Shown here in pieces: positions 13,107 through 64,000 of a stretch of DNA of 64,000 nt. Numbering within the stretch: the first letter of the stretch is position 1; each line of letters opens with the position of its first letter. The translations under genes were made by a program, and so were the position numbers. The DNA comes from Mycobacterium spongiae. GTDB taxonomy: Bacteria > Actinomycetota > Actinomycetes > Mycobacteriales > Mycobacteriaceae. The stretch is taken from contig NZ_CP046600.1 in assembly GCF_018278905.1 (NCBI RefSeq), forward strand, positions 4,154,001 to 4,218,000. Direction: 5' to 3'. A model generated the notes under the pieces. The model searched no databases. It worked only from the letters and a program-made list of their open reading frames with translations, and was not told the origin of the DNA.

Positions 13107-16100
13107 CTAGTTAAAGAAACCCGACTGGTTGTCACCAGCGTTGAATCCTCCCGAGCTGCCGTCGCCCGAGTTGTACACGCCCGAGGTCGCGGTGCCGGCG
13201 CCCGAGTTCCCGATACCGGTGTTGCTGTTACCGGTGTTGGACAAGCCCGCGAGCAGGTCGCCAGCGTTGTTGATGCCGGAGGTGCCCGCACCGGAATTCA
13301 GCAGACCCGACGTTTCTGAGCCGGAGTTCAGCAGACCCGAGGTGTCTTCGCCGTTGTTCCGGAAGCCGGAGTTGGCAGCGAAGCCACCCGTGTTCGTGTT
13401 CTGGAAGCCGGAGTTGCCGGCGAAACCGACAGTCCCGGTGTTCTCGAACCCGGAATTGCCGTCACCGGAGTTGTTGAACCCTGAGTTGCCCGTGCCGGTG
13501 TTGCCGAAGCCCGAGTTCGCCACCGGTTGGGTCACCGAGCTGCCGAAGCCGGTGTTCAGGTCGCCGGAGTTCAACCCGCCGGTATTGGTGTTACCCGCGT
13601 TGAACAGGCCGGTGTTCGTATTGCCTGCGTTGAACAGGCCGGTGTTGGTGTCTCCCGAGTTCAGCAGGCCGGTATTTTCGTTGCCCGCGTTGAACCAGCC
13701 CGTGTTGGAGTTGCCGGCGTTGAAGTCGCCGGTGTTCTCCGAGCCCGAGTTGAAGTTGCCGGTGTTGACATCGCCCGAGTTCCCGATACCTGTGTTGGCG
13801 AAGCCCGTGTTCCCGACGCCCATATTCTGGTTGCCCGAGTTCCCGAAACCGAAGTTGGCCGAGCCCGCGTTCCCAAAGCCGGTGTTGATGGAGCCCGAGT
13901 TCCAGAAGCCCGTGTTGGTGTCTCCGGAGTTGGAGAAGCCGAAGTTGCCGTCTCCGGAGTTGAAGAAGCCGAAGTTGCCGTCTCCGGAGTTGAAGAAGCC
14001 GATGTTGTTGCTACCGGAGTTGCCGAAGCCCAGGTTCCCGATGCCCGAGTTGAGCGCGCCAATGCCTACCAGGTTGTCGCCGGTGAGCCCAAAGCCAATG
14101 TTGTTGTTACCGTTATTGCCGAAGCCCAGGTTGCCCTCGCCAAAGTTCCCAAATCCGAGGTTATTTTGGCCTTGATTTCCGAATCCGATATTGCTTTCGC
14201 CGTTGTTGCCGCTACCCACGTTGAAATCGCCGCGGTTTCCGCCACCGAAGTTGTTCTCGGAGAAGAGGGCGCCGCCACCGTTGCCGAAGCCGAAGTTCAA
14301 GTCACCGTCGTTGCCGAATCCGAAGTTGGAGTCGTTCACATTTCCAAAGCCGAAGTTGAAGTTGCCGTCGTTGCCGAAGCCGAAGCTGAAGTCGCCGTTG
14401 TTTCCGAAGCCAAAGAAGTTCATGTCGCCGGTGTTGCCGAGGCCGAAGTTCAAGAATCCGTTGTTTCCGGAACCGAAGTTCGTGTTGCCGAGGTTTCCGC
14501 CGCCGAAGTTGAAGAAGCCGTTGTTTCCGCTGCCGAAGTTTGCGTTGCCGATGTTCCCGCTGCCCAGGTTCAAGTTGCCGATGTTTCCGCTGCCCAGGTT
14601 CACGTTGCCGAAATTGCCCAGACCCAAATTCCACGCGCCGGTGTTCCCGAAGCTGGTGTCGAGGGCCGGGATCCCGGGCAGGGCGATCACCGGCGCGGCC
14701 GGCAGTCCCGCAAACAGAATGCTGGAGATGTCAAAGAAACCTGACTGATCATCAAGGGTGTTGAACCCACCCGAGCTGTTATCACCCGAGTTCGCGAAGC
14801 CCGAGGTCTCGCTGAAGCCGGGGTTGGCGGCCGAGTTGGCGATACCGCTGTTGTTCTCGCCCGTGTTGGACAATCCTGCGAGATTGTCGCCGATGTTATT
14901 GATACCGGTGTTCGATGAGCCCGAGTTGAGCAGACCGGAGTTGTCATCGCCGCTGTTCTGGAAGCCGGTGTTACCGAAGAAGCCGCCCGTGTTCGTGTTC
15001 TGGAAGCCGGAGTTGCCGAACAGGCCCATATTCGTGTTCTGGAAGCCGGAGTTGCCGATAGCACCCATGTTCGCGTTCTCGAAGCCGGAATTGCCATCAC
15101 CGGAGTTATTGAAGCCCGAGTTCCCGGCACCAATGTTGCCGAAGCCCGAATTCATCACGGGTTGGGTCACCGAGCTCCCGAAGCCCGTGTTCAGGTCACC
15201 CGCGTTCACAACGCCAGTGTTCGTGTTGCCCGCGTTGAGCAGGCCGGTGTTGGTGTTACCCGAGTTGAACAGGCCCGTGTTGGTGGTACCTGAGTTGAAC
15301 AGGCCCGTGTTGCCAAAGCCTGAGTTGAACCAGCCCGTGTTGAGGCTATCCGAGTTGAAGTCGCCGGTGTTGTCACCGCCCGAGTTGAAGTTGCCGGTGT
15401 TGTCCGAGCCCGCGTTGAAGTTGCCGGTGTTGTTAGTGCCCGAGTTACCGAGACCAGTGTTCTGGTTGCCGGCGTTCCCGAAGCCGAAGTTGCCCGAGCC
15501 CGCGTTCCCGAAGCCGGTGTTGGTGGAGCCGGTGTTCCCGAAGCCCGTGTTGATGTCGCCGGAGTTGGCGAATCCGAAGTTGCCGTCTCCGGAGTTAAAG
15601 AAGCCGATGTTGTTGCTGCCGGAGTTGAAGAAACCGATGTTATTGTCACCGGAGTTGCCGAAGCCGAAGTTACCCATACCCGAGTTCAGCGCACCAATGC
15701 CAACCAGGTTGTCACCGGTGAGCCCGAAACCAATATTGTTGTTGCCGACGTTCCCAAACCCCACGTTGCCGTCGCCAAGGTTGGCAAAGCCCAGGTTATT
15801 CGCGCCGAGATTCCCGAAACCGATATTGCTGTCGCCGTTGTTGCCGCTACCCAGGTTGAAATCGTTTAGATTTCCGAAGCCAAAGTTGTAGTTGCCGTTG
15901 TTTCCGAAGCCGAAGTTCCCAAGGTTTTCGTTTCCGAAGCCGAAGTTGTACTGGGCGTCGTTGCCGTTTCCGAAGCCGAAGTTGACGTCACCCTGGTTTC
16001 CGAAGCCGAAGTTGAAGCCACCGTTGTTGCCGAACCCAAAGAAGTTCATATTGCCGTCGTTGCCGAAGCCGAAGTTCAGGGAGCCCACGTTTCCAAAACC

Positions 16101-17108
16101 GAAGTTCGTGTCGCCGATGTTGCCGCTACCGAAGTTGAAGAAGCCCTGGTTTCCGCTGCCCAAGTTTGCGTTGCCGATGTTCCCGCTGCCCAGGTTCGCG
16201 TTGCCGATGTTTCCGCTGCCCAGGTTCAGGTTGCCGATATTGCCCAGACCTAGATTCCACGCACCGGTGTTGCCGAGACCGGTGTTAAGCGCCGGAAGCA
16301 CCGCCGCCGCCAGCCCCGCCACCGGGACACCCCCGGTGATCGGAACCGCCGCCAGCGCGCGAGAAGCCGCCGCACCAGCCCCAGTCAACGGCGCCAACAC
16401 CGGATCCACCGCAGCTGCCACCGGCGCTACCGCACGCGCCGCAGCCGTACCCACCGCAGCCAGCGGTGCGGCCACCGGACTGGCCGCCACCGCCCCGGCC
16501 AGCCGCGCCCCAGCCGCAGCCACGGGCGCCGCAACCTTGCCGGCCACGCCGAGCACCTGACCTACACCCGGCAAGGCCCCTAACCCTTGCTGCAGCCCCG
16601 TTTGCCACGGCACCAAACCCGCCGCCGCCGCCGAGGCCCCGCCGTGATAGCCGACCATCGCGGCCACATCGGCAGCCCACATCTCCTCATAGATGCCTTC
16701 GGTAGCCGCGATCGCCGGCGCGTTTTGCCCAAACAGATTCGATAACACCAACTGCACGAACGCATTGCGGTTGGCCGCGACCGCCAGCGGATGCACCGTC
16801 GCCGCCCGCGCGGCCTCAAACGCGCTCGCGGCCGCTCTCGCCTGCCCAGCAGAGCCAACGGCCCGCGCCGCCGCAGCACCCAACCAACCCGCATACGGGG
16901 CGGCCGACGCGGCCATCGCCGCCGCCGCCGCGCCCTGCCAGGACTGATCGGCCAAGCCCGCGGTCACTGCCACAAATGACTCCGCCGCCACCTCCAACTC
17001 CTCGGCCAACCCCTCCCACGCCGCCGCGGCAGACAAGATGGGCGCAGACCCCGCACCGGTAAACATCCGCAACGAATTAATCTCCGGCGGCAGCACCGAA
17101 AAGCTCAT
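13107..17108 (-). CDS. PPE family protein, MPTR subfamily, with a duplicated repeat module
   Basis: The protein has 1,333 residues. The start [15 protein letters not shown] is the classic PPE N-terminus, with Pro-Pro-Glu at residues 8-10, and the ~180-residue PPE helical domain includes a SWQG-type motif ([10 protein letters not shown]). A short alanine-rich linker follows, then about 1,030 residues of MPTR pentapeptides (NxGxGNxG, SxNxGFFN types). The MPTR part consists of two similar modules of about 545 residues, each starting [13 protein letters not shown] and ending QSGFFD/N, joined by [22 protein letters not shown] proteins are exported by ESX (type VII) systems, usually with a PE partner; no PE gene adjoins this one, whereas H37Rv has PE14 near this position. 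ATG 17108 was preferred over GTG 17117 because it gives the canonical start. Confidence 0.93.
13110..16300 (-). repeat. Two tandem MPTR modules, about 1,635 bp apart
   Basis: The DNA encoding the C-terminal module (about 13110-14700) and the preceding one (about 14730-16300) align in order. For example, the segment encoding [19 protein letters not shown] lies around 14035-14095 in one and 1,635 bp later in the other, and the SSVTQPV segment recurs near 13530 and 15160. The copies differ by scattered substitutions and small indels, so the duplication is older than the GH18 one at the window end. Confidence 0.85.
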
Positions 17109-17117
17109 GACACCCAA

Positions 17118-17509: not shown

Positions 17510-18724
17510 CTAAATCCAGACGCCCTTGCCGACTGCGACCACGCCGCCGGTGCTGATCGCGAACCGTTCCCGGTCCTTCTCCATGTCCACTCCGACCATT
17601 TCACCAGGTCCGACGACAACATTCTTGTCCAGGATCGCGTGGCGGACTACAGCGCCGCGGCCGACCCGAGCGCCCGGCATGATGACGCTGCCCTCGACGA
17701 TCGCGCCGTCATCGACCACAACGTTCGACGACAGCACCGAATTACGCACCGACGCCGCCGAAATGATGCTGCCGGCACCGACCACCGAGTCCTGAGCCGA
17801 GCCACCGTTGACGAACTTCGCCGGCGCCAGGTTCTCCGACTCCCCACGGATCGGCCAGCGCTTGTTGTACAAGTTGAACACCGGATGCACCGACACCAAG
17901 TCCATGTGTGCGTCGTAGAACGCATCCAGCGTCCCCACGTCACGCCAATAGCCGCGGTCGCGTTCGGTGGCGCCAGGTACTTCGTTGTCCGAGAAGTCGT
18001 AGACGGCGCCCCTGCCGTCGGCCACCAGTCGGGGAATGATGTCACCGCCCATGTCGTGATCCGAATGGTCGTCGTCGGCGTCGGCGCGAATCGCGTCGAT
18101 CAACACCTTGGTGGTGAAGACGTAGTTACCCATGGAAACGAACGTGGTCTCAGGGTCGTCGGGTGTTCCGGGCGGCTCTAGCGGCTTCTCGACAAAGCCA
18201 CGGATGACGCCAGATTCGTCGGCGTCAATACAGCCGAATGCGGTCGCGGTCGCACGCGGAACACGAATGCCCGCCACCGTTGCGCCGGCCCCGCTATCGA
18301 TATGAAACCGAACCAACTGTTCGGGATCCATCCGATAAACGTGATCGGCACCGAAAACCACTATGTACTCAGGATCTTCGTCGTAAATCAGGTTCAACGA
18401 TTGATAGATCGCGTCGGCCGATCCGGTGTACCACCGCGGACCGAGGCGCTGCTGCGCCGGTACCGGGGTGATGTATTCGCCGGCCAGACCGGACAGCCGC
18501 CAGTTCTGCGAAATGTGACGGTCCAGCGAGTGCGACTTGTATTGGGTGAGAACACAGATCCTCAGGTAGCGAGCGTTGACGAGATTCGAAAGTACGAAGT
18601 CAATCAGGCGGTAGGCACCACCGAAGGGAACGGCGGGCTTGGCACGGTCGGCCGTTAGCGGGTAAAGCCGCTTGCCCTCGCCGCCGGCCAGGACGACACC
18701 CAGCACGTGCGGCACTTCCCTCAT
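17510..18724 (-). CDS. glgC: Glucose-1-phosphate adenylyltransferase GlgC
   Basis: GlgC makes ADP-glucose from ATP and glucose-1-phosphate for glycogen, capsular alpha-glucan and maltose-1-phosphate synthesis. The 404 residues match the H37Rv length. Visible motifs are the nucleotidyltransferase signature [20 protein letters not shown] at residues 11-30, [19 protein letters not shown], the catalytic [14 protein letters not shown], and a C-terminal left-handed beta-helix ([20 protein letters not shown]). It is divergent from glgM, which uses its product, across a 402-bp gap filled mostly by 58-bp repeats. Confidence 0.96.
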
Positions 18725-18774
18725 GGCTCAAACCTATCGGCCCCCGCCAACAGCTGCCAGCCGACTCCGCCTTA

Positions 18775-19114
18775 CCGTCCGGCTGCTCCTCGTCCCACTA
18801 CGCGGGCCGCATCGTCGCCGAACACCACCCCACCGTCCGGCTCCTCCTCGTCCCACTACGCGGGCCGCATCGTCGCCGAACACCACCCCACCGTCCGGCT
18901 CCTCCTCGTCCCACTACGCGGGCCGCATCGTCGCCGAACACCACCCCACCGTCCGGCTCCTCCTCGTCCCACTACGCGGGCCGCATCGTCGCCGAACACC
19001 ACCCCACCGTCCGGCTCCTCCTCGTCCCACTACGCGGGCCGCATCGTCGCCGAACACCACCCCACCGTCCGGCTCCTCCTCGTCCCACTACGCGGGCCGC
19101 ATCGTCGCCGAACT
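18775..19114 (+). repeat. Six tandem copies of a 58-bp repeat between glgC and glgM
   Basis: Units begin CCGTCCGGCT at 18775, 18833, 18891, 18949, 19007 and 19065, a constant period of 58 bp. The copies are identical except for one base in the first (GCTGCTCC versus GCTCCTCC) and the truncated last copy, which diverges after GCCGAAC, 13 bp before the glgM ATG. Because 58 is not a multiple of three, the three forward frames cycle; none contains a stop, creating a spurious N-terminal extension of glgM. The near-perfect identity is typical of a length-variable VNTR locus. Confidence 0.97.
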
Positions 19115-19126
19115 ACGGTGCGGGGT

Positions 19127-20290
19127 ATGCGGGTGGCGATGTTGACTCGGGAGTACCCACCGGAGGTCTATGGCGGGGCGGGGGTGCATGTCACCGAACT
19201 GGTATCCCGGCTGCGGCGGCTGTGCGAGGTTGACGTGCATTGCATCGGCGCGCCCCGCGCCGGCGCGTTGGCCCATCAGCCCGACCCGCGGCTAAGCGGC
19301 GCCAACGCGGCGCTGTCCACCTTGTCGTCGGACCTCGTGATGGCAGCTGCGGTCACTGCGGCCAACGTTGTGCATTCGCACACTTGGTACACCGGCCTGG
19401 CCGGGCACTTGGCGGCGAGGCTTCACCACATCCCCCACGTCCTGACCGCGCATTCGCTCGAGCCGCGGCGGCCGTGGAAAGCCGAGCAACTCGGCGCTGG
19501 CTATCACGTGTCCACATGGGTGGAGCAGACGGCGGTGCTGGCCGCTGACGCGGTCATCGCGGTCAGCTCGAGCATGCGCGATGACATTCAGCGGGTCTAT
19601 CCGAGGTTGGATCCGAGCTTGGTGCACGTCGTCCGGAACGGGATCGACACTCACGTGTGGTACCCCACCGGGCCGACGGACGCCACGTCGGTACTGGCCG
19701 AGCTGGGCGTCGACCCGAAGCGGCCAACGGTGGCGTTCGTGGGCCGCATCACCCGGCAGAAAGGCGTTGCCCATTTGATAGCCGCCGCGCACCGATTCGT
19801 CCCCGAGGCGCAGCTCCTCCTGTGCGCCGGTGCTCCTGACACCCCGGAGATAGCCCGTGAAGTGCGCGCAGCCATCAGCGCGTTGGCCTGCAGTCGCACC
19901 GGGGTGTTCTGGGTTCGGGACCGGCTTCGGATCGAAGACTTGCGCGAAATACTTTCGGCAGCAACACTCTTCGTGTGCCCGTCGGTCTACGAGCCGTTGG
20001 GCATTGTTAATCTGGAGGCAATGGCGTGCGGGACCGCCGTTGTAGCCTCCGATGTGGGCGGGATTCCCGAAGTGGTCAGCGACGGCATCACCGGTTCGTT
20101 GGTGCATTACGCTCCTGACGACCCCGCCGCCTACGAGGCCAGATTGGCCGAGGCGGTCAATGCCCTCATCGCCGACCCGGCACGAGCGGCGCGCTACGGT
20201 CAAGCCGGGCGCCAGCGTTGTGTCGAAGAATTTTCCTGGGAACGCGCTGCCAAGCAAACCCTGGACATCTACCGGAAGGTGTGCGAATAG
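19127..20290 (+). CDS. glgM: GT4 glycosyltransferase GlgM/GlgA (maltose-1-phosphate synthase)
   Basis: A 387-residue GT-B fold enzyme with a glycogen synthase-like N-terminus (TREYPPEVYGGAGVHVTEL), a KxGG-equivalent YGGAG loop, and the C-terminal FVCPSVYEPLGIVNLEAMACGTAVVASDVGG donor-site region with the E-x7-E motif. The M. tuberculosis counterpart (Rv1212c, formerly GlgA) transfers glucose from ADP-glucose to glucose-1-phosphate, giving maltose-1-phosphate for GlgE-dependent alpha-glucan. ATG 19127 gives the exact H37Rv length; the open frame upstream is the 58-bp repeat array. Confidence 0.93.
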   Translation: MRVAMLTREYPPEVYGGAGVHVTELVSRLRRLCEVDVHCIGAPRAGALAHQPDPRLSGANAALSTLSSDLVMAAAVTAANVVHSHTWYTGLAGHLAARLHHIPHVLTAHSLEPRRPWKAEQLGAGYHVSTWVEQTAVLAADAVIAVSSSMRDDIQRVYPRLDPSLVHVVRNGIDTHVWYPTGPTDATSVLAELGVDPKRPTVAFVGRITRQKGVAHLIAAAHRFVPEAQLLLCAGAPDTPEIAREVRAAISALACSRTGVFWVRDRLRIEDLREILSAATLFVCPSVYEPLGIVNLEAMACGTAVVASDVGGIPEVVSDGITGSLVHYAPDDPAAYEARLAEAVNALIADPARAARYGQAGRQRCVEEFSWERAAKQTLDIYRKVCE

Positions 20291-61996: not shown

Positions 61997-64000
61997 TTAG
62001 TCCGATGCGGCCTGTTCGGCGGCGGCGTCTTCGGCGAAGTCATCGAAAATCTCGGTGAAATCCCAAGCCTGCTGCGCGATTCCACTGCCCTCGTTGTTGG
62101 CAACACCCAACACACCCTGCATATCGCGAGGAAGCTGCCACATCGACAACTCACCAATATTGTTCTGATCAGCGAACGCCGCCAGCTGCACAGCATCGTC
62201 CAGGGTAAAAACCTCACTCGGATTGTCATTGACTCCGATCATCGGCGTCACCCCCAGCATCGCCCACACCTGCTCACTGCTCAGCGACGGATACAACCCC
62301 ATCAACTGCCCATGAGTGGCCTGCGCCGCATCAATCGCCAAGGCCCCCATGTCATACGGCGCATACGTCGGATCGAAATAGTCCATCGTCATGATGTTGA
62401 CCCGCTCAATCACAACACCATTACTCTGCGCAATCTCAACAACCCGCAACCCATCAACCGTCAGACCCGTCGGCAACACCGGAAGGGTATACGACACCGT
62501 CACCGGAGTACCGTTAGCGTCCCCCCACTGCTGAGCAAGAACAATCGCCTGCGACTGCGCCTCTAGGGCCGCCACATTGGACTGCATCGCCCCCTCAACA
62601 TCGAAATCGATGTCATAGATCTCATAGGTCGTCATCACCTGCTGATACTGCAGCGCAAGCTCAGCAGGACTGACATCGTTCGCCGCGGCATACACAGCCA
62701 GATCCGTACCAGCCGCCCCACCAAAGGAAATGGTCCCGTTGATGCCCGCGCTATCCATGTTGGCAAGCTGATTATCAATAAACCAACTATGACTGCCACC
62801 GCTGACGTCGTACTCCGGATAGCCACCCCACGCCGCCTCGCCCCCAGGAGTAGCAGTGATAAAGGCCAGCGTGACATCATCGACCCCCGCCTGCGCCACC
62901 GCAGCAAAGTCAAACCCCTCATTCGACGGCCACAACGTAATATCGACATACGGCGAGAACCTCCCATACACCACCCCGTCACCCGTGCCGGTCCCGCCGC
63001 CGCTGCCGCCACTGCCGCCAGTCCCGGTGCCGCCGCCGGTTGACTGTCCGTTGACCAGGACGTTCGTCGGTTCCGAGTAGGCGCCGGTGAGCAGGGCTTG
63101 GAAGCCAACCACGACCGACTCGCCCGGCTGAATCGTTTGCGTCCAAGACTCCGGGGTGATCGTGTAGTGCGTACCATCCTGGGCGAGCTGACCACTCCAC
63201 AGATTGGTGATGGATTGGCCTGCGGCCAAATCGAATTCCACCTGCCAACCAGTCACCGCGGTCTCACCGGCATTCGAGATCGTGAAATCAGCCACGAAGC
63301 CGTTATCCCATTGCGACGTCACCGCATACGTCGCGGCCACCGCGCTATCACCAGCGCCACCATCACCCGTCCCCCCATCACCAGCGCCACCATCACCGGT
63401 ACCCCCATCCCCAGCGCCACCATCACCGGTACCCCCATCCCCAGCGCCACCATCACCCGTGCCACCGTCACCGGTACCGCCGTCACCCGTGCCACCATCA
63501 CCCGTGCCGCCATCACCGGTTGCGTCGGCCTGTTCGGCGGCGGCGTCTTCGGCGAAGTCATCGAAAATCTCGGTGAAATCCCAAGCCTGCTGCACGATTC
63601 CACTGCCCTCGTTGTTGGCAACACCCAACACACCCTGCATATCGCGAGGAAGCTGCCACATCGACAACTCACCAATATTGTTCTGATCAGCGAACGCCGC
63701 CAGCTGCACAGCATCGTCCAGGGTAAAAACCTCACTCGGATTGTCATTGACTCCGATCATCGGCGTCACCCCCAGCATCGCCCACACCTGCTCACTGCTC
63801 AGCGACGGATACAACCCCATCAACTGCCCATGAGTGGCCTGCGCCGCATCAATCGCCAAGGCCCCCATGTCATACGGCGCATACGTCGGATCGAAATAGT
63901 CCATCGTCATGATGTTGACCCGCTCAATCACAACACCATTACTCTGCGCAATCTCAACAACCCGCAACCCATCAACCGTCAGACCCGTCGGCAACACCGG
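61997..64000 (-). CDS. Modular GH18/CBM2 chitinase-like protein, 5' end outside the window
   Basis: The minus-strand frame remains open to the right edge; 667 codons are visible. From the N-terminal side of what is seen: the end of a GH18-like module (copy A, to about 63525), a ([10 protein letters not shown]) pentapeptide linker, a CBM2 carbohydrate-binding module (about 63343-63044; [10 protein letters not shown] and WSGQL aromatic residues), a Gly/Ser/Thr linker, and a full GH18-like module (62977 to about 62030; [11 protein letters not shown] with catalytic Glu and two of the DxxDxDxE Asp). The likely substrate is chitin, cellulose or a related glycan outside the cell; the signal peptide lies beyond the window. 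In H37Rv fbiC follows TB8.4 here, so this gene is an insertion relative to it. Confidence 0.85.
62011..64000 (-). repeat. Near-perfect intragenic duplication, offset 1,518 bp (copies 62011-62482 and 63529-64000)
   Basis: The 472-bp segments at 62011-62482 and 63529-64000 are identical in what I compared except for one base (GCGATT versus GCACGATT region, giving Ala versus Val in the encoded SGI-A/V-QQAW). The offset of 1,518 bp equals 506 codons, so the frame is kept. The duplicated copy ends at the window edge, so its full length is unknown. Confidence 0.9.
63344..63524 (-). repeat. 15-bp linker repeats encoding (T/A)GDGG
   Basis: About eleven to twelve consecutive 15-bp units encode TGDGG or AGDGG and link copy A of the GH18 module to the CBM2 module. 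Such Gly/Asp/Thr-rich linkers separate catalytic and binding domains in secreted glycosidases. The number of units is likely to vary. Confidence 0.85.

Follow-up and report, generated by a model that had tools for sequence, protein, structure and literature searches.

A 58-bp tandem array between glgC and glgM of Mycobacterium spongiae, adjoining the probable leaderless promoter of glgM, as a candidate copy-number tuner

The closest described systems for the array presented here are the tandem repeats at M. tuberculosis promoters and the dispersed units for which Supply et al. in 1997 reportedly used the name MIRU (mycobacterial interspersed repetitive units). The papers cited below by PMC number were available in part, and what is said of them holds for those parts. 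Promoter repeats of M. tuberculosis have units of 58 bp at lpdA, 57 bp at dop and 54-56 bp at cysG; the lpdA repeat (VNTR3690) lies 12 bp upstream of a leaderless start, lpdA with four copies was 12.5-fold above lpdA with one copy, and copy variants occurred within one culture at dop and lpdA, none being seen at cysG (PMC12817950). The lpdA repeat contains a hairpin, and lpdA mRNA in culture was higher in H37Ra (three copies) than in H37Rv (two), whereas in macrophages H37Ra had hardly any; the direction of the effect may depend on conditions, and the two strains differ elsewhere too (PMC2440308). Longer ETR-F/VNTR3239 arrays upstream of fpg1 went with modestly more mRNA (PMC2734929). A non-coding RNA is annotated over the region upstream of M. 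tuberculosis lpdA (PMC9213004), and 17 of the 24 MIRUs used in typing overlap 5' UTRs of M. bovis (PMC4128351).

The array analyzed here lies between the divergent genes glgC and glgM of M. spongiae, in a window of 64,000 nucleotides (the whole stretch of DNA that was studied), and the features of the locus are collected in Table 1. The protein encoded by glgC also matched TIGR02091 (468 bits, above the cut-off). The units begin at 18774, 18832, 18890, 18948, 19006 and 19064; five are full, units 2-5 are identical, and the sixth comprises 50 of the 58 bp, matching up to 19113. The two ATGs, at 18724 (minus strand) and 19127, are 402 bp apart; the array takes 340 bp of this gap and is separated from the glgM ATG by 13 bp (19114-19126). 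Its period-shift score reached 278 as compared with a maximum of 10 in shuffles (one shuffle for each of 176 distinct gaps), hence the array is not a product of chance, and it was confirmed as a real feature of the sequence. The copy number was taken from one assembly, a single contig of 5,581,157 bp. An earlier note on this DNA had described near-identical 58-bp repeats filling most of the gap and ending 13 bp from the glgM start. TRF and the comparison of units, which differ in one base, bore this out, only the coordinates given there (18775-19114) being off by one. The recent copy-number change that it had proposed agrees with the homogenized units in the window and with the range of about 1 to 5.9 copies at the same site across species. 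Elsewhere in the window, a 1336-aa frame with NxGxGNxG-type repeats (13107-17117, minus strand), presumably a PPE-MPTR gene, accounted for 40 of the 60 TRF rows, and a 15/30-bp tandem repeat with 11.4 copies of 15 bp was found by TRF at 63347-63517.

Table 1. Features of the glgC-glgM locus in the window (aa, amino acids; R1, covariance model of the repeat element).
Feature	Coordinates	Strand	Details	Basis
glgC, glucose-1-phosphate adenylyltransferase	17510-18724	-	404 aa	NF002023, 680 bits (cut-off 458)
Unique 49 bp, from glgC start to array	18725-18773	.	glgC core promoter inside	
Probable -10 box of glgC	18731-18736	-	TAGGTT, 6 nt before glgC ATG	
Tandem array	18774-19113	.	58-bp period, 5.9 copies, 99% matches	TRF
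Sole base differing among array units	18785	+	G in unit 1, C in units 2-6	Unit comparison
Five further element copies	18773-18825, 18831-18883, 18889-18941, 18947-18999, 19005-19057	-		R1, 59.9 to 65.5 bits
Promoter-flush element copy	19063-19115	-	TAG end at glgM -10 box, reads away from glgM	R1, 72.7 bits, E 1.1e-19
Probable -10 box of glgM	19114-19119	+	TACGGT, 7 nt before ATG, directly after array	
glgM (glgA of actinobacterial type)	19127-20290	+	387 aa	TIGR02149, 607 bits (cut-off 302)

Set beside the lpdA and dop repeats by their published descriptions of size and position, the glgM array is best read as one of the mycobacterial promoter tandem repeats of this kind. Its unit, repeated 5.9 times, falls within the 54-58 bp range, its distance from the start codon (13 bp) is close to the 12 bp reported for lpdA, and the dop gene of M. 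spongiae also carries an array of the element, with the same 57-bp spacing as the M. tuberculosis dop repeat (PMC12817950). As at lpdA, the array adjoins a probable leaderless promoter, with the -10 box immediately after its last base, a likeness noted at the sequence level, and both units carry an inner hairpin (PMC2440308). It differs in gene and species and in being placed between two divergent, probably leaderless genes. The M. spongiae lpdA, located by NF005883, has no array. A 58-bp array at 59 kb, suspected of being the lpdA array from its GACGATGCACGCCG core, was rejected; it sits behind another ORF, which we take to encode inositol-phosphate synthase. The published 19-nt core of the lpdA hairpin was present in 4 of 396 genus genomes, inside the element in G226 and G085, with partly matching flanks in G114, and without any flank match to the element in G340.

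The likeness to other repeat classes is more partial. The array shares with MIRUs a repeat of 40-100 bp, an intergenic location and both dispersed and tandem occurrence, but MIRUs are, in the accessible descriptions, mostly transcribed in operons or 5' UTRs; the strict MIRU criterion asks for a transcribed operon or a site between co-directional genes, whereas the array lies between divergent genes with the probable core promoters outside it. ETR-F/VNTR3239 is likewise a tandem repeat upstream of a gene, but it combines 55- and 79-bp units, lies between rnc and fpg1 and is reported to be confined to the M. tuberculosis complex (PMC2734929); its effects were modest, and its units are not known to belong to the glgM element. 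Myt-1 of M. tuberculosis, compared by description only, is another dispersed structured repeat, of 72 bp and with 75 members (PMC2267715). Among the papers listed in the literature searches, most subscription journals being outside their reach, no report of the glgC-glgM array or of TAG-anchored placement was found, nor did the searches give any paper joining MIRU with glgC.

Both glgC and glgM look leaderless, because TANNNT boxes adjoin their ATGs; this hexamer is the mycobacterial SigA -10 element in the accessible text of PMC4128351. The array's last base (19113) immediately precedes the glgM box. Of 137 distinct Mycobacteriaceae gaps, 128 have a TANNNT at a distance of 5-8 nt from the glgM start and 136 have one at this distance from the glgC start, as compared with 20 of 5606 shifted control positions on the glgM side. 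In the 39 other gaps it preceded glgM in 31 and glgC in 36 (control 16/1569). The set of 137 consisted of the loci outside L055-L095, plus L072, and included three MAGs labelled otherwise (L037, L041, L043) and five rows without a start codon at the aligned glgM start. A simple scan, not fitted to mycobacterial TANNNT promoters, found neither a sigma-70 consensus promoter nor a terminator-like site. In the gaps of many relatives (e.g. L108, L105), a conserved TGACGG-N5-CCGTCA palindrome and/or a CAAGG box was seen, the perfect palindrome in 11 and the CAAGG box in 39 of the 137 gaps. They make a candidate operator; both are absent from the window (18725-18773) and from six checked relatives (L016, L020, L101, L109, L112, L053).

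Both core promoters are thus probably outside the array. With the -10 boxes so placed, copy number would be unable to alter the promoter-to-gene distance, and this part of the earlier proposal, that copy number could change promoter distance and expression of both genes, had to be given up. What copy number does alter is the DNA preceding the glgM box, along with the spacing between the two promoters. Since the core promoters appear to be outside, an effect on expression is not forced; it stands as a possibility for glgM by the M. tuberculosis precedents at lpdA (PMC12817950) and fpg1 (PMC2734929), and for glgC it can at most be inferred.

The array unit is, judging from its sequence, an approximately 53-bp structured MIRU-like element plus a short linker, which on the minus strand is arranged as outer stem, GACGATGC, inner hairpin, GAGGAGGA and outer stem. 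In an alignment of 17 of the 21 extracted units (L002, L013, L206 and L207, of other length, were left out), 94.1% of cells pair in the proposed structure, a figure biased in the structure's favor, since the latter was drawn from the same sequences. Covariation gave 20 cells changed on both sides versus 5.9 in shuffles (0/500 as high), and slid partners gave at most nine such cells. Folded as DNA, the window's unit, with its weakened inner stem, reached a z-score of -0.5 (55 of 200 shuffles folded as well), the other four units -1.4 to -4.3. The covariance model R1 was built from the 17 aligned units, among them the promoter-flush unit of the window, and found at least 128 copies in the M. spongiae genome at E <= 0.01, a lower bound with only 150 candidates scored. 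Among the matches listed, the copies form 53 clusters, 33 of them with two or more copies, and 45 of the 75 spacings within clusters are 56-59 bp. The element is dispersed as a repeat of about 53 bp and is intergenic by a rough ORF filter, which placed some of the sites inside frames. The raw core GACGATGCNNNNCG occurred 194 times versus 15 for its reverse in the M. spongiae genome and exceeded the reversed control in all 118 genus genomes, an excess to which coding sequence perhaps contributes; the covariance model was used instead of this count. R1 matched in 92 of the 118 genomes (E <= 0.001, stricter filters).

A second, shorter element type, with 51-54 bp spacing and a GACGATGCAGAGCG core, was also observed in the M. 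spongiae genome (for example at L217 1551-1657, L218 1491-1644, L263 and L260). The GACGATGC..GAGGAGGAG cores are common to it and the window's type. It often lies close to, or at, the stop codon of a co-directional gene, and is presumably the classical MIRU proper.

The placement of the element across the M. spongiae genome was then compared between its two flanks. At 13 of the 53 clusters, the TAG end falls at a TANNNT hexamer, with a start codon 5-8 nt further on that opens a frame of 60 codons or more; the same arrangement was found on the opposite flank at 1/53 (Fisher p 0.0009). The test covered all 53 clusters listed and was devised after glgM and two other cases had been seen. The remaining 40 clusters are not at any detected leaderless promoter. 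Nine of the 13 flush genes were named above the cut-offs, namely glgM, dop (TIGR03688, 804 bits; three element copies 57 bp apart), mshC, mycoredoxin, RNase PH, cofD, cei, CCA tRNA nucleotidyltransferase and mptB; four fell below them (cardiolipin-synthase-like, lipid-kinase-like, nitrilase-like and fumarylacetoacetate-hydrolase-like). At 16 of the 40 non-flush clusters, a co-directional coding frame ends near the element, its stop codon falling no more than 14 bases before or 10 bases after the first base of the element, a count given without a control and with coding judged by codon-position G+C. In the longer element type, TAG stands just upstream of 22/40 first copies as opposed to 4/59 inner ones (p 2e-7), and in the shorter type of 0/11 first and 0/16 inner copies; the types were split by our own rule, which placed 126 of the 128 copies. 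These counts indicate that in many cases the outer TAG is a stop codon in the sense direction or else, read on the opposite strand, the CTA of a -10 box. The pattern CATCGTCG-N4-6-CTANNNT-N5-7-RTG gave 152 matches, a few of them overlapping, in 54 of the 118 genomes, and its reversed control three. This wider pattern, in which a single structured element adjoins many probable leaderless promoters, has the greater novelty.

The glgC-glgM gap was extracted from 187 loci (176 distinct gaps). These came from 77 of 80 named loci, the locus lacking glgC in the other three, and from 110 of the 111 genus genomes in which GlgM was matched; the exception, G068, has a match beginning at residue 41 and was left out. 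In 15 rows the gene start was extrapolated from an alignment beginning a few residues in. Tandem repeats of period 56-59 were present in 16 of the 176 distinct gaps with scores of at least 20, the highest shuffle reaching 10, and 15 of the 16 resemble the window's element by eye, the L133 array being unlike it. In one further gap the repeat period is 41, and L022, with 1.2 copies, reached a score of 11. The 16 arrays range from 1.4 to 5.9 copies, the window having the most, and one genome stands for each species in this comparison. One M. asiaticum entry (1245139.5) has 3.6 copies, and the other (1275241.6) a 95-bp gap and no array. With 160 of the 176 distinct gaps free of such an array, it must be dispensable for glgM.

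The GlgM+GlgC tree, made by a quick method with SH-aLRT support only, had 70 rows (68 different), the 80 short loci L126-L205 being left out, and included 14 of the 16 arrays. The arrays require nine state changes versus a shuffled mean of 13.1, and the starred branches force at least six. All 14 array rows fall in one clade of 47 rows together with M. asiaticum and M. colombiense, which are slow growers; a neighboring group of 18 rows with Mycolicibacterium names has no arrays. The M. spongiae row has a long end branch (0.29 vs a median of 0.071 changes per column), so its glgM and glgC either evolved fast or have no close sampled relative. Unit identity, compared for 13 of the 16 arrays (L027, L126 and L133 left out; L028 had one unit), averaged 0.947 within arrays (46 pairs) and 0.781 between species (657 pairs). 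The within-array mean exceeded the best foreign unit in 7 of the 12 arrays with two or more units, and in the other five (L107, L120, L105, L111, L020) a foreign unit was more similar. From the state changes on the tree and the identity within arrays it appears that the arrays at the glgM promoter have been gained and lost repeatedly and were often, not always, homogenized.

On the observed position, structure, genome-wide family and recurrence at the same site elsewhere, we base the reading that the array is a slippage-prone promoter element tuning glgM by copy number, with a probability of roughly 0.55, largely by analogy with the M. tuberculosis loci. The element reads away from glgM, and its TAG end coincides on the opposite strand with the CTA opening the -10 box (CTACGGT). 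In the mechanism envisaged, glgM would be transcribed from this box without a leader. Repeats would be gained and lost through slippage or unequal recombination, and each added copy would supply more upstream sequence, as binding sites or altered DNA shape, with the core promoter unmoved. Copy number might then determine how strongly glgM is expressed and perhaps how far it is independent of the divergent glgC promoter; most likely, by analogy with lpdA and fpg1, more copies would give more glgM transcript, at least in culture. The wider form of the proposal is more tentative: we regard it as possible that, in mycobacteria of the slow-growing clade, a REP-like element carries a TAG with two readings (stop codon or -10 CTA) and that arrays growing from this anchor act as genome-wide copy-number rheostats at leaderless promoters (glgM, dop, mshC, mycoredoxin, RNase PH, cofD and others), recurrent at orthologous promoters and often homogenized within species.

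The strongest of the rival explanations sees in the array a neutral minisatellite, a selfish repeat which spreads and slips and whose copy number has no effect on glgM expression. The repeated gain and loss on the tree, the many gaps without an array, the 40 clusters away from any detected leaderless promoter and the location of both probable core promoters agree with neutrality, but the enriched flush placement at -10 boxes, the covarying stems and the copy-number effects at lpdA and fpg1 of M. tuberculosis (PMC12817950, PMC2734929) do not, and we consider it rather unlikely. The array could also work as RNA, an antisense or long 5' transcript whose stem-loops would form a structured non-coding RNA or an attenuator between glgC and glgM. 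Covariation of both stems, the RNA annotated upstream of lpdA (PMC9213004) and the overlap of typing MIRUs with 5' UTRs (PMC4128351) would suit this function. However, both genes appear leaderless, and neither main transcript would then include the array; the terminator scan was negative, and no Rfam match was obtained for the array or for the repeats of eight other loci at E up to 1 (covariance models). At the scanned loci four Rfam matches were listed: ASdes, two tRNAs and a plastid family that coincides with a tRNA. An RNA role is in our judgment improbable.

The idea that the array is coding, glgM starting upstream and the repeats forming a variable N-terminal extension, goes back to the earlier note, which had pointed to forward frames without stops and to longer glgM readings in any copy number. 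The first observation is true, as all three forward frames are stop-free across 18725-19126 and an open frame begins at 18707; open frames also precede glgM in many other relatives, but in G+C-rich DNA they say little. The longer readings did not hold up. The conserved -10 box beside the ATG predicts leaderless transcription, an upstream stop must lie within a few codons in G007 and G131, where the open frame has 390 aa versus 387 for GlgM, and a 58-bp unit shifts the frame with each copy, giving unrelated peptides. In addition, the M. tuberculosis gene cloned from the equivalent ATG gave a working product that restored maltose-1-phosphate, and the gene part of the cloning primer, ATGCGGGTGGCGATGTTGACTCG, is identical to the window (PMC4981310, accessible part). 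An N-terminally extended GlgM was therefore rejected as very improbable. An assembly artefact in the copy number, for which identical repeats are a known risk, is just as improbable given the single-contig assembly and the presence of comparable arrays between glgC and glgM in other assemblies.

The findings extend promoter-repeat tuning, as a proposal, beyond M. tuberculosis and its known loci, the glgC-glgM pair being one that feeds alpha-glucan synthesis. Should copy number tune glgM, the supply of maltose-1-phosphate could vary between strains and even between cells within a culture, and such variation would be a reversible change missed by short reads. That a single structured element lies flush with so many probable leaderless promoters offers a testable rule as to which mycobacterial VNTRs may be regulatory.
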